A stretch of 22,460 nucleotides of DNA from a virus. The translations under genes were made by a program, and so were the position numbers. The first letter of the stretch is position 1, and each line of letters begins with the position of its first letter. The notes beneath the pieces are model-generated. The model saw only the letters and a program-made list of their open reading frames with translations, was not told the DNA's origin and did no database searches. Of this stretch, positions 2,966 through 9,632 are shown piece by piece. The stretch is taken from the IMG/VR virus record IMGVR_UViG_3300030118_000216, positions 1 to 22,460 of that record; one strand, given 5' to 3'.

Positions 2966-3075
2966 CTATTCTGGGTAGTAAGCTTTTTTATGATTAGCTA
3001 GAACGTGGTCAGCGTAATAATATAAAGGCTCGCCATGTTCGTCGTAAATTGTGTTTTTAACTTATGTTTAGTCAT
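2966..3075 (-). pseudogene. Small gene with an apparent -1 frame break
   Basis: The ATG at 3075 overlaps the stop of the upstream gene as ATGA and has GGAG at a good distance. In the initial frame it reads MTKHKLK and then a poor-looking tail to a stop at 2998 (25 codons). If the ribosome slips -1 at TTA AAA, or if the A-run has one more base, it continues as NTIYDEHGEPLYYYADHVL and ends KKAYYPE at 2966, giving 36 residues with ordinary protein character. The longer form looks more natural, so this is either a broken gene, a base-call or indel event in the A5 run, or programmed slippage. The family is unknown. Confidence 0.45.
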
Positions 3076-3293
3076 CCTAAAAGCTCCTTTATGAACTCAG
3101 CGCTTTCTAACATGTCTGAGGACATCAACTGAGGATCGTCTTTCTGTACGTCCTCAATATGCTCAATCATGTGGTCTAACGCTACTTGTAGAACATTTAC
3201 GTCCATTCCGTTTAACTGAGCCGCCGCCCCATTTTTTAGGACAATGTAGTTGTGACCCAATGGCAAGTTTAATTCAATCATTCTGTTGGTCAT
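3072..3293 (-). CDS. Unknown small acidic protein
   Basis: This is a 73-residue protein with no named family that I recognise. The N-terminal third is hydrophobic and beta-like (IELNLPLGHNYIVLKNGAAAQ). The rest is acidic and helical (ALDHMIEHIEDVQKDDPQ to the end). The start has GGAGAG a few bases upstream. It lies in the leftward cluster after a 77-base gap holding two hairpins, and its stop overlaps the start of the next small gene as ATGA. Confidence 0.65.
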   Translation of the reverse strand: MTNRMIELNLPLGHNYIVLKNGAAAQLNGMDVNVLQVALDHMIEHIEDVQKDDPQLMSSDMLESAEFIKELLG

Positions 3294-3320
3294 GTGTTAC
3301 TCTCCTTTGTACACCTCAAG

Positions 3321-3358
3321 TCATGCGATTGCATGAGAACGCACCGCCGAAACGGTGC
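3321..3358 (-). promoter_or_regulatory. Two adjacent hairpins in the leftward transcript
   Basis: TCATGC (3321-3326) pairs with GCATGA (3331-3336) around a 4-base loop, and GCACCG (3341-3346) pairs with CGGTGC (3353-3358) around a 6-base loop. They lie in the only sizeable gap of the leftward cluster. No U-tract follows, so they are not a classical terminator. An RNA processing or stability site, or a regulatory leader for the last genes, is possible. Confidence 0.45.
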
Positions 3359-3370
3359 TATCTGATACAA

Positions 3371-3880
3371 TCAAATTGTTTGATAAATTTCTAAAGCTTG
3401 ATTTTCACTTATATCGTTTAAGATTGTAACATCAGTGTATTTGTTCTTGATAAACTCTTTTAAAAGCCAATCAGGTTTATCTTTGGGTTTATTCCATTGG
3501 GCAACCCTAAGCTCGTCATTCTCTTTGATCTGAGCCACTACACAACGCTTCAAAAGCCTTTTGAGATCTTTCTTGGTTAGATACTCAAAGACTTGAGCAT
3601 GACACCAACTTTCTAGAGTTTGCTCAAATCCCTCAGGTGCCCAATCATAGACACCGACATCCGTTTTAGGCAATGATTTGAAATAGGCTTCAACCTCTTG
3701 ATACTTTTTGAACCAATGACCTTTAAAATTTTTGTGATCGTGCACACGATCCGCTCCCCCATGTCCGTCATTGTCAACATGAGCAAAGGGTTTACCGTCA
3801 AGATAAATGACACCCTCAAAACAGTAAGTTTCTTGACTTGCAAAGTCACAGTATTTGATTGCTTTTAATTCTAGTTTCAT
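3371..3880 (-). CDS. Phage protein of unknown function
   Basis: This is a 169-residue soluble protein. The N-terminal part is strand-rich: charged residues, then YCFEGVIYLDGKPFAHVDNDG followed by HGGADRVHDH. The FxGxxYLDGKxxxxVxNDGxGG pattern recurs in phage hypothetical proteins, to my recollection. The second half is helical and lysine-rich. No catalytic motif is certain, although the histidine and aspartate cluster near residues 34-48 could bind a metal. The start has GGAGGATC upstream and overlaps the stop of the preceding gene as ATGA. An inhibitor or host-takeover role is suggested only by its cluster. Confidence 0.65.
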   Translation of the reverse strand: MKLELKAIKYCDFASQETYCFEGVIYLDGKPFAHVDNDGHGGADRVHDHKNFKGHWFKKYQEVEAYFKSLPKTDVGVYDWAPEGFEQTLESWCHAQVFEYLTKKDLKRLLKRCVVAQIKENDELRVAQWNKPKDKPDWLLKEFIKNKYTDVTILNDISENQALEIYQTI

Positions 3881-4182
3881 TTTAGATCCTCCGTTAAGGT
3901 GTTAAAAAAATCCATGCCGCAACCAATCCAAAGATTAGAGCGCATGAGGCTACATCGCTGAGTTTGATGTTCTTGATGATTGTGATTAGTTCTGAGATTG
4001 TCATTTGTTCCTCCGTATAATTTCTTTTCAGCCCAAAAAACAAAAGACTGTAGTTCGTTTCCCTCTGAGATATTGTTGTCACTTGCACATTGTTTAAGCG
4101 CTGATCTAGGTTCAAGATCCTCAAACATATCAAGTAAGGTTAAAGCCTCATCAAAAGCTTGTGAAAATCTAACGTCTGTCAT
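3877..4182 (-). CDS. Unknown small protein with an overprinted C-terminus
   Basis: This open frame of 101 codons begins three bases past the stop of the preceding gene and has a GAGGAGG site. Residues 1 to about 57 (acidic and helical, FDEALTLLDMFEDLEP, then SFVFWAEKKLYGGTN) look like normal coding sequence. From there to the end the composition changes to N, H, Q and R residues. This is exactly where another frame encodes a membrane microprotein. The frame stops by ATGA overlap with the next gene. The N-terminal part is probably real; the tail may simply be a run-on caused by the overlapping gene. No family is recognised. Confidence 0.55.
   Translation of the reverse strand: MTDVRFSQAFDEALTLLDMFEDLEPRSALKQCASDNNISEGNELQSFVFWAEKKLYGGTNDNLRTNHNHQEHQTQRCSLMRSNLWIGCGMDFFNTLTEDLK
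3894..4004 (-). CDS. Nested single-pass membrane microprotein
   Basis: This is a 36-residue open frame lying wholly inside the 3877-4182 gene in another frame. The ATG has a near-ideal GGAGGAACAA site upstream. The product is a short polar N-terminus (MTISELITIIKNIKLSD) and one strongly hydrophobic helix (VASCALIFGLVAAWIFLTP) at residues 18-36. That fits a small inner-membrane protein. A holin-like, superinfection-exclusion or membrane-stress role is possible but unsupported. The clean Shine-Dalgarno and sharp hydrophobic segment favour a real gene. Confidence 0.55.
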   Translation of the reverse strand: MTISELITIIKNIKLSDVASCALIFGLVAAWIFLTP

Positions 4183-4467
4183 TTAGCAATCCTCCTCACT
4201 CATCCAACAAAGACCCATACCAACAAAGTAAAGATTATCTTTGTTTGGCTTTTGATCCCTCAACTCAATCCAGAAATCCTCATCATCCCAATCTGGATTA
4301 AAGACCTTTGGCACAACGTCCTCAACTATCTTTTCAAAGACTTCTTTAGTTACGTATGGATTAAGCCATCCGTTCCAACGTGGATTAGAAGGATTATAAA
4401 AACCCTCATAAATAGGATCGTTCTCATCGTTGTACAATCCAAAGTTTGTTTTGATATATTCTGTCAT
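4183..4467 (-). CDS. Unknown acidic, aromatic-rich protein (WNGW motif)
   Basis: This is the first gene of the leftward cluster. The 94-residue product is acidic and rich in Trp, Tyr, Phe and Asn, with FYNPSNPRWNGWLNPYVTKE near residues 23-42 and DDEDFWIEL further on. RWNGW...PYxTKE resembles a motif in small bacterial and phage proteins of unknown function; I cannot name the family. The ATG has AGAGG upstream and follows the strong promoter at 4495-4522 by a short leader of roughly 20 bases. Small acidic proteins made first from a strong promoter are often host-directed inhibitors, but this is inference from position. Confidence 0.65.
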   Translation of the reverse strand: MTEYIKTNFGLYNDENDPIYEGFYNPSNPRWNGWLNPYVTKEVFEKIVEDVVPKVFNPDWDDEDFWIELRDQKPNKDNLYFVGMGLCWMSEEDC

Positions 4468-4494: not shown

Positions 4495-4522
4495 ATTCTA
4501 TAGAAGTGACACGCCGTGTCAA
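4495..4522 (-). promoter_or_regulatory. Strong sigma70-type promoter for the leftward cluster
   Basis: Read leftward, TTGACA (4522-4517, perfect -35) is followed after 16 bases by TAGAAT (4500-4495, five of six -10 bases). Transcription would begin near 4488, about 20 bases before the first ATG at 4467. Confidence 0.75.
4507..4521. promoter_or_regulatory. Palindromic operator overlapping the leftward -35
   Basis: TGACACGCCGTGTCA is a 15-base palindrome with 7-base arms around a single C. It covers most of the -35 and the start of the spacer of the leftward promoter, so a bound dimer would block RNA polymerase. A second copy of the half-site TGACACG lies at 4566-4572, near the expected start of a rightward transcript. 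The protein that binds it is not identifiable here. Confidence 0.6.
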
Positions 4523-4534
4523 CTAAATAATTAT

Positions 4535-4563
4535 TTGTAATCTATCGCCGCTTAGTTTATGCT
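4535..4563 (+). promoter_or_regulatory. Possible rightward promoter before the packaging genes
   Basis: TTGTAA (4535-4540), a 17-base spacer and TATGCT (4558-4563) give four of six matches in each box, with the TGACACG half-site just downstream. This is a weak match and is supported mainly by its place between divergent gene sets. Confidence 0.35.
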
Positions 4564-4614
4564 TATGACACGGTACAAGGTTCCTAGCCTGTGACTTTGT
4601 ATGCCTCAATAACT

Positions 4615-4641
4615 AGCCCCTCTTTATGGGGGGCGCTTTTT
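4615..4641 (+). terminator. Terminator-like hairpin just upstream of terS
   Basis: AGCCCC (4615-4620) can pair with GGG and GCT (4631-4637, one bulged C) around a loop of about ten bases, followed directly by a T-run (4637-4641). The Shine-Dalgarno of terS begins at once after it. It may attenuate transcripts from a nearby rightward promoter or end a short leader RNA. Confidence 0.55.
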
Positions 4642-4654
4642 GAAGGAATTCGAT

Positions 4655-5089
4655 TTGAGTAAACGAAGTGTAAATACGGTGATTATGGAGAAAATCGTTG
4701 ATCGCCTAGCATCAGGCGAAACGCTTGTTGACATCACAAAAGACAAGGCAATGCCGAGCTATAGAGCCGTTACAAGAGCCGTCGCAGCTGACGAGGATTT
4801 ATGGGCGCTTTATCGCAAAGGGCGTATTCTCCAAGCCGAGTTTTACGCGGATAAAATCAATGGGCTTGCAATGGAACCTCTCCCAGAAGGTGACGTGCGT
4901 TTTCTCAATGCTGAGGTTAACAGACGGCGTTTAGAGATTGACACACTGAAATGGACAACGGCAAGAAACCAACCATTTGGAATACGTGACAAGAAAGAGG
5001 ATCAACCTCAAGCTCAGACATTCACGATTTCATGGAGCGGAGGTGACACCGCTATTAACGCACATGAGGATGAAGAGGTCTTGCATTGA
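4655..5089 (+). CDS. terS: Terminase small subunit
   Basis: This 144-residue protein probably starts at TTG 4655, because AAGGA lies seven bases upstream; an in-frame TTG at 4640 sits inside the terminator hairpin. Residues about 10-60 hold a helix-turn-helix-like stretch (RLASGETLVDITKDKAMPSYRAVTRAV) of the kind used by small terminases to recognise packaging DNA. A helical part follows (YADKINGLAMEP, FLNAEVNRRRLEIDTLKWTTARNQP) that is typical of this protein type. The acidic tail probably contacts the large subunit. It lies directly upstream of the large terminase region. The protein would form a ring that marks the genome for packaging. Confidence 0.75.
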   Translation: MSKRSVNTVIMEKIVDRLASGETLVDITKDKAMPSYRAVTRAVAADEDLWALYRKGRILQAEFYADKINGLAMEPLPEGDVRFLNAEVNRRRLEIDTLKWTTARNQPFGIRDKKEDQPQAQTFTISWSGGDTAINAHEDEEVLH

Positions 5090-8034: not shown

Positions 8035-9632
8035 TGGCACAGATCTCACCGTTGATAGCGCAACTAGACAGACGTTTTAAGTCTTTGCAAAGCACACGTT
8101 CTAATTGGGAGCGTCATTGGCAAGAATTAGCAGACTATATGTTGCCGCGAAAAGCAGACATAACAAAGAAAAGAACGCAAGGTGATAAACGTACAGAGTT
8201 GATCTATGACGGCACAGCGATCCATGCCGTAGAGCTTTTATCGTCTAGCTTGCATGGTATGCTTACATCTCCTAGCACCCCTTGGTTTTCTATGCGGTAT
8301 CGAGATCCATCACTACAAAATGATGATATGGCAAATGAGTGGTTGGAATTGTGTTTGGATCAAATGTATCAGGCGTTTCACAGATCTAACTTTCAGCAAG
8401 AGATACATGAGCTTTATTATGACCTTGTAGTGTTTGGCACTGCTGCTTTCTATGTAGAAGGTGACAAAGAGGGGTTGCGGTTTTCGTGTCGGCATATTGC
8501 AGAGATAACGATTGCTGAGGATGCGAATGGGCAAGTAGACACAATCTATAGAAAGTTTAAAATCTCTGCTCGTGCTGCGGCGCAACGTTTTGGTGAGGAA
8601 ACATTGCCAGCACAAATGGCAAAAGACTTCAAGAACGAGCCGCATAAGGAACATGAGATTGTCCATGCGATATATCCGCGTGGCGAAGCAAAAGGACGTA
8701 AAGCGCAGAACAAACCAATAGCGTCTGTTTATTATCATGCTGACACAAGACAGTTATTGTCTGAAGGTGGTTTTGATGATTTTCCGTTTATGGTTCCGCG
8801 TTTCGTAAAAGATAGCGTAAGTACGTATGGCAGAAGTCCAGCAATGAACGCACTGCCAGATGTAAAGATGCTAAACAAAATGTCAGAAATAACAATCAGG
8901 GCAAGTCAGAAACAAGTTGACCCACCTCTGATGGTTCCAGATGACGGATTTATGTTACCTGTACGTACAACACCGGGGGCGTTGAATTTTTACAGAACAG
9001 GAACAAGAGACAGGTTAGAGCCTTTAAATATTGGAGCAAACAATCCTCTCGGTTTAAACATGGAAGAGCAGAGACGTAATGCTATACGTCAGGCTTTCTA
9101 TGTGGATCAGTTGTTGATGTCGCAAGGGCCAGCGATGACAGCGACTGAAGTGTTGCAGCGCAACGAGGAAAAGATGCGGCTATTAGGACCAGTTCTCGGT
9201 AGGCTCCAGTCGGAATTGCTCCAGCCCCTTATATCCAGATCCTTTGCGCTGCTGCTCAGGAACGGACTCCTCCCTGCCGCGCCTGAGCAACTACAAGGCC
9301 AAGACATTGATATTGAGTATGTCTCACCGCTTGCCAAGGCTCAGAGACTTACAGATCTACAGTCAATGTTGCGTGGCTTTGAGGTAATGATGCAGGTAGC
9401 AGAAATTGCGCCTGTTATGGATTATCTCGATGATGATAAGCTTGTGCAGTATCTTGTAGAGGTGACAGGTATTCCGGCACGAGTAATCAGAAGCAATGAA
9501 GAGGTACGGCGCTTGCGTGAAGAAAAAGCAGAGCAAGAAGCAGCGCAACAAGAAATGCAGCAACAGATGATGCAAGCTGAAACCGCGCAGAAAGTAGCAC
9601 CATTAATTAAAGCAGCAGGGGCTGTTGATTAA
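8034..9632 (+). CDS. Portal protein (head-tail connector, T7-type)
   Basis: This 532-residue protein matches the podovirus head-to-tail connector family. N-terminal features are RSNWERHWQELADYMLPRKAD and LIYDGTAIHAVELLSSSLHGMLTSPSTPWF, followed by DLVVFGTAAFYVEGDKEGL, FPFMVPRFVK, YGRSPAMNALPDVKMLN and MTATEVLQRNEEKMRLLGP, all in the expected order. The end is a Gln-rich coiled coil (KAEQEAAQQEMQQQ). The protein forms the dodecameric ring at one vertex, through which TerL packages DNA and to which the tail attaches. A stretch around 9185-9300 uses C-rich codons unlike the rest. The start shares one base with the preceding stop (TAATG). Confidence 0.93.
   Translation: MAQISPLIAQLDRRFKSLQSTRSNWERHWQELADYMLPRKADITKKRTQGDKRTELIYDGTAIHAVELLSSSLHGMLTSPSTPWFSMRYRDPSLQNDDMANEWLELCLDQMYQAFHRSNFQQEIHELYYDLVVFGTAAFYVEGDKEGLRFSCRHIAEITIAEDANGQVDTIYRKFKISARAAAQRFGEETLPAQMAKDFKNEPHKEHEIVHAIYPRGEAKGRKAQNKPIASVYYHADTRQLLSEGGFDDFPFMVPRFVKDSVSTYGRSPAMNALPDVKMLNKMSEITIRASQKQVDPPLMVPDDGFMLPVRTTPGALNFYRTGTRDRLEPLNIGANNPLGLNMEEQRRNAIRQAFYVDQLLMSQGPAMTATEVLQRNEEKMRLLGPVLGRLQSELLQPLISRSFALLLRNGLLPAAPEQLQGQDIDIEYVSPLAKAQRLTDLQSMLRGFEVMMQVAEIAPVMDYLDDDKLVQYLVEVTGIPARVIRSNEEVRRLREEKAEQEAAQQEMQQQMMQAETAQKVAPLIKAAGAVD

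Follow-up and report, generated by a model that had tools for sequence, protein, structure and literature searches.

A conserved candidate operator for a Cro-like protein at a leftward promoter upstream of terS in an uncultured marine phage

The question raised by this locus is what a perfect palindrome is doing on a strong leftward promoter, close to the terminase small subunit gene of an uncultured marine phage. The window, meaning the whole stretch of DNA analysed, comprises 22,460 nucleotides and corresponds to positions 1 to 22,460 of a 35,203-base viral record (IMGVR_UViG_3300030118_000216, here G000). An earlier reading of the sequence alone had proposed that one regulator, acting at the palindrome and at a further TGACACG 59 bases away, could switch transcription in both directions. 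The palindrome TGACACGCCGTGTCA, of the form TGACACG-C-CGTGTCA, was confirmed at 4507-4521, and it does overlap the TTGACA (4522 to 4517) of the leftward promoter, as that reading had it. The features on the leftward side are the following.

4506-4522, no strand: 17-bp candidate operator GTGACACGCCGTGTCAA, consensus TTGWC-N7-GWCAA, present at the homologous place in relatives with fixed spacing
4517-4522, minus strand: -35 box TTGACA of the leftward promoter, within the right half of the operator
4495-4500, minus strand: -10 box TAGAAT of the leftward promoter, conserved in relatives
4183-4467, minus strand: first gene of the leftward operon, 94 amino acids, function unassigned, behind the operator-bearing promoter
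3072-4182, minus strand: further small leftward genes (3877-4182, 3371-3880 and 3072-3293), functions unassigned, likely in the same operon
2946-2921, minus strand: terminator-like site 3' of the small leftward genes

Taken by itself, the palindrome is unremarkable; its significance comes from comparison with relatives. The window contains five perfect 7-1-7 palindromes, against a mean of 1.45 in shuffled windows, and TGACACG occurs four times where 2.5 are expected. Rfam and tRNA searches of the palindrome region gave no matches. An exact search of viral contigs found the 15-mer in 39 of them, and those with a terS homologue were close relatives. The genome-wide search suggested by the sequence-only reading had a divided outcome: no second copy of the 15-mer exists in the 35,203-base record even when two mismatches are allowed, whereas a broader 17-bp motif was found again in front of a Cro-like gene.

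Among relatives the palindrome takes the form of this 17-base motif, TTGWC-N7-GWCAA, with a variable centre, to which the window site (4506-4522) has one mismatch. In dereplicated regions the core TGWC-N7-GWCA was present upstream of terS in 26 of 43 (other spacings, 0-4; shuffled mean, 0.475) and upstream of the regulator gene in 14 of 20 (other spacings, 0-2; shuffled mean, 0.085). This spacing test is the strongest single result. The same contigs bear the motif at both places, and a matrix built from the regulator sites only placed the terS-upstream site at the top of all positions in 12 of the 28 loci having both genes. The regulator-upstream regions of L209, L249 and L250 had no clear site.

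Because the half-sites coincide with the -35 consensus, this conservation may in part be promoter conservation. At the extreme, there would be no operator, and the palindrome would be two back-to-back -35 boxes belonging to divergent sigma-70 promoters in competition for RNA polymerase. TTGACA is indeed the -35 consensus, and the left half can be read here as a rightward promoter, GTGACA-17-AATTAT, with 9 of 12 matches. Across relatives, however, a rightward -10 for the left half occurred at chance level (z 0.3); the left half is therefore more than an additional -35. The 7-base spacing is moreover fixed, and it is seen again both in the gap between the CI-like and Cro-like genes of relatives and at the regulator gene; an entire clade of relatives tolerates a change of TGACA to TGTCA that would harm a -35 box yet preserves the motif. 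We consider this explanation highly unlikely.

The leftward promoter, TTGACA-16-TAGAAT (4522 to 4495), is the best sigma-70 match of the region (11 of 12), and its -10 at the right spacing is conserved across relatives (z 6.4). When dereplicated regions were sorted by the direction of the neighbouring gene, the motif was present in all 23 with a leftward neighbour and in only 3 of the 18 with a rightward one (Fisher test, 1.3e-8); the three exceptions include L214, whose orientation is ambiguous, and L238, whose site is weak. Since the motif tracks leftward neighbours and the leftward -10 is conserved, we assign the operator to the leftward promoter. Close relatives (TerS identity 93-100%) share the promoter and ribosome-binding site yet differ in the first gene after them, and the leftward operon (3072-4467) thus appears from these sequences to be a variable, swappable early cassette.

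The other side of the locus bears on the proposal that the site governs leftward and late rightward transcription together. Its features are the following.

4534-4563, plus strand: probable rightward (late) promoter TTTGTA-18-TATGCT, read from sequence, a weak consensus match with no operator
4566-4572, plus strand: spaced half-site TGACACG, with no partner half in register
4616-4634, plus strand: intrinsic terminator within the leader that separates terS from the rightward promoter
4640-5089, plus strand: terminase small subunit gene terS (Pfam Sf6_terminase, E 2.9e-19), first gene of the late packaging and structural operon

The layout is divergent, and the probable rightward start follows the operator by about 50-60 bases, as a two-way switch would have it. 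The distance from the operator to the rightward promoter nevertheless varies widely among relatives, in which TTGTGT-17-TATATA or TATCAT stands as the rightward promoter at the homologous place, and regions that have the rightward operon alone lack the motif. The further TGACACG is present at 4566-4572, 59 bases away as had been reported, but it is kept in the closest relatives only, reads TGATACG in L122 and is missing from the L127 clade; it is probably a chance occurrence. Control of both directions from one site is thus quite unlikely, and that part of the sequence-only reading found no support: the motif follows the leftward promoter only.

The terS leader has a composition of its own. 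Within 4564-4640 a hairpin and a conserved string, TGCCTCA..AACTAGC, precede the intrinsic terminator, which stands directly 5' of terS, and similar elements are present in relatives of both neighbour orientations. By analogy, the leader resembles the lambda pR'-tR' late leader, and it may need antitermination.

If the palindrome is an operator, a protein that binds it should be identifiable. The earlier suggestion that the genome be searched for a Cro- or CI-like regulator proved fruitful, as such a gene was found outside the window with the same motif upstream of it.

Record 34546-34749, outside the window: 67-residue Cro-like HTH gene, divergent from an exonuclease gene
Record 34489-34505: regulator-region 17-mer, perfect match
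Record 34517-34533: regulator-region 17-mer, one mismatch

The gap between the exonuclease and HTH genes is 69 bases and contains several copies of the same half-sites, so that dyad operators occupy the divergent promoter region of the regulator itself; the same operator recurs at another early promoter (4506-4522 and its homologues, the window copy being low-scoring). The 67-residue protein matched HTH_3 with an E-value of 6e-4, which does not reach the Pfam cut-off, and a PHROG transcriptional repressor family with an E-value of 2e-4. Its AlphaFold model (pLDDT 95) has a small HTH fold of the lambda-repressor type; the best Foldseek matches were the CapH N-domain, SinR, P22 c2 and N15 Cro, with TM scores of 0.55-0.67, E-values above 0.05 and a probability near 1 for the best match. 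The recognition segment H-A/G-T-V-V-R-R-W-C-L was nearly invariant in a diverse set of 29 regulators, and 28 relatives with 51-82% identity have it almost unaltered; the use of HATVVRRW as one of the search patterns inflates this result. The shared motif supports the earlier view of the palindrome as an operator-like site for a dimeric protein of the Cro/CI type.

A host regulator, or another regulator of the phage, might bind the site instead. Two more small HTH-like proteins were observed, one of 85 residues (record 32276-32533, minus strand) and one of 95 residues (1017-1304); both gave weak matches and are candidates for other regulators, for example a late activator. Against such an assignment, the motif lies directly 5' of the Cro-like gene through most of the family, down to the regulator of L274, which has 47% identity and an altered recognition segment yet a perfect 17-mer upstream. 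In addition, G003-G006, in which the Cro-like gene was not found, also lack the motif upstream of terS. We consider binding by a different regulator very unlikely. A search of bacterial genomes with the regulator profile gave 21 pattern matches, none of which was confirmed.

We also considered a restriction-modification controller (C-protein) system. A cytosine methyltransferase gene lies 3' of the HTH gene in this genome, and C.BclI, C.AhdI and C.Esp1396I were among the fold matches. This reading was rejected, as it is scarcely credible given that the gene after the HTH gene in L238 is nuclease-like and not a methyltransferase, that the motif is also present at an unrelated operon, and that no C-protein match was obtained in Pfam or PHROG.

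The strength of the window copy is uncertain. It has a G at position 1 and a C at its centre, where the regulator-upstream sites have A or T, and with a matrix score of 10.2 it ranks ninth in its own genome, under two sites within coding genes; the atypical positions and the low score mean that it may be a weak site. It could even be a degenerate relic, an ancestral operator whose G+C-rich centre is no longer bound and of which only the promoter function has been kept, in keeping with the absence of cI and int. Both half-sites, TGACA and TGTCA, are nevertheless intact, and the closest group (TerS, 97-100%) keeps the 17-mer in each of its seven distinct sequences, which are too alike to count as independent evidence. 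We regard a relic as rather unlikely. High-scoring 17-mers were also seen inside coding genes, at 774-790 (a nuclease) and record 34859-34875 (a methyltransferase), and are probably due to chance; by a rough hand estimate from base composition, about 0.15 perfect 17-mers per genome are expected by chance.

The record ends have about 39 bases in common, with one mismatch, so the record is probably near complete or circular. No integrase (PF00589) was detected in the entire 35,203-base record, which extends to the full record the earlier remark that none was visible. The nearest isolates are HTVC010P-type pelagiphages (capsid identity 66-74% in most, TerL 52-57%), and with homologous TerL and capsid and a genome of about 35 kb the phage belongs with them. 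A comparison of the exonuclease with the phage collection gave no match. The TerL profile found chiefly distant prophages in bacterial genomes, and the regulator accompanied it in L274 only. This L274 is a viral-like contig in a metagenome-assembled genome labelled Euryarchaeota, with a TerL of 66% identity, the exonuclease and the Cro-like gene, and it is probably mis-binned. The CRP-810 family was rejected as kin, its genome being 57.7 kb and described as only distantly related to the HTVC010P type (PMC11288001). The rightward operon also contains a gene for a protein with a PAPS-reductase domain (1443-2273; Pfam E 5e-6), and a similar open frame was seen at 8044-8880 in the temperate relative L238.

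Lysogeny genes separate this phage from its relatives. No CI match was found in its clade, where the exonuclease gene directly abuts the operator region, and this phage has no CI-type repressor divergent from the Cro-like gene; no S24 domain was detected among 17 records. Relatives whose regulators have 51-61% identity usually carry a CI-like gene (HTH_26 of the Cro/C1 type, with E-values as low as 2e-7) between the exonuclease and Cro-like genes, divergent from the latter, with an integrase gene near this locus where the contig is long enough; PF00589 integrases were detected in three relatives, G010-G012. Most CI-Cro gaps contain two 17-mers with starts 39-42 bases apart, and in phages lacking CI the corresponding distance is 24-29 wherever both sites can be recognised. 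The module of this phage and the cI-cro immunity region of these temperate relatives are homologous. The kinship to a genetic switch that had been pointed out is thus real, given relatives with an integrase, a CI-like gene, paired operators and this Cro; in the phage itself cI and int are absent.

An exonuclease tree recovers the clade of the window as a monophyletic group with 100/100 support; none of its 20 rows has CI or an integrase. Its sister group (L250 and L254) includes a phage with an integrase and no CI. Rooted on a distant pelagiphage outgroup the pattern reads as a stepwise loss of cI and int, from which we infer loss rather than gain; this direction hangs on a very distant outgroup, and the root is unsure. 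Four relatives (L252, L254, L260 and L262) have an integrase and no CI gene adjoining Cro; they may represent steps on the way to losing lysogeny, or they may rely on a different repressor.

Considering these results together, we think it probable that the palindrome serves as an operator, bound by the 67-residue Cro-like protein of the phage itself to shut off early genes. We infer binding, repression and timing as follows. A dimer of the protein would contact two TTGWC half-sites separated by one turn of DNA, would mask the leftward -35 box and would silence the small early genes (3072-4467); at 34489-34505 and 34517-34533 the same protein would repress the divergent exonuclease and recombination operon as well as its own. 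It would be made early, so that early genes are turned off while late transcription proceeds. The late promoter before terS, having no operator of its own, would stay unblocked, and the net effect would therefore be early-gene shut-off. Our best reading is that a Cro-like shut-off of early promoters may persist in a phage with no lysogeny genes. More tentatively, it is possible that a widespread HTVC010P-like marine clade has turned a lambda-type switch into a purely lytic early shut-off, dropping first cI and then the integrase, with the operator-bearing promoter driving a swappable cassette. With their operators retained, these phages may be open to silencing by CI from related prophages, which, if true, would be homo-immunity against phages unable to lysogenise.

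The analysis supplies an operator consensus, together with a candidate regulator, for uncultured marine phages of a group in which we found no described transcriptional control in open papers. Their relatives form a natural series, some with both cI and int, some with int alone and some with neither gene. The change of lifestyle can thereby be put to a direct test, as can immunity of the lytic phages to related prophages.

The cI-cro regions of lambda and P22 resemble this arrangement: they encode a small HTH protein of the Cro kind and have 17-bp dyad operators whose half-sites are spaced by roughly one turn, the interval between the divergent early promoters holds several sites, and a second leftward promoter has an operator too. 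The temperate relatives, with a CI-like gene, an integrase and an adjoining exonuclease, add to the likeness. The lambda and P22 regions differ in that this clade has no cI, integrase or S24-type CI, that two sites rather than three are recognised at the regulator gene of this phage, and that the extra operator adjoins terS and not an N-like gene. Among HTVC010P-type isolates, a small HTH gene adjoins the exonuclease in HTVC010P and HTVC204P, and the annotations of HTVC010P, Greip and HTVC204P list no integrase; in contrast to the phage described here, the isolate genomes scanned have no perfect operator motif, and their HTH proteins are far diverged. Staphylococcus phage SA97 has a partial lysogeny module and forms no lysogens; it lacks cI- and cro-like genes and retains an integrase and an antirepressor (PMC4632378). 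Here the reverse is seen, with Cro and operators retained and the integrase gone. The closest precedent comes from virulent phages of Streptococcus thermophilus such as DT1, a phage with temperate kin that, in work credited to Lamothe and colleagues (2005; listed among the references of PMC3952083), reportedly kept a cro gene and operator region with no cI; the host and phage group are unrelated, and here an additional conserved operator lies at a distant leftward promoter. A virulent phage with Cro and operators but no cI is thus already known in principle; within the reach of our searches, the novel elements are the marine phage group, the consensus of its operator, the second leftward promoter that bears an operator, and the series of relatives that have or lack cI and int.
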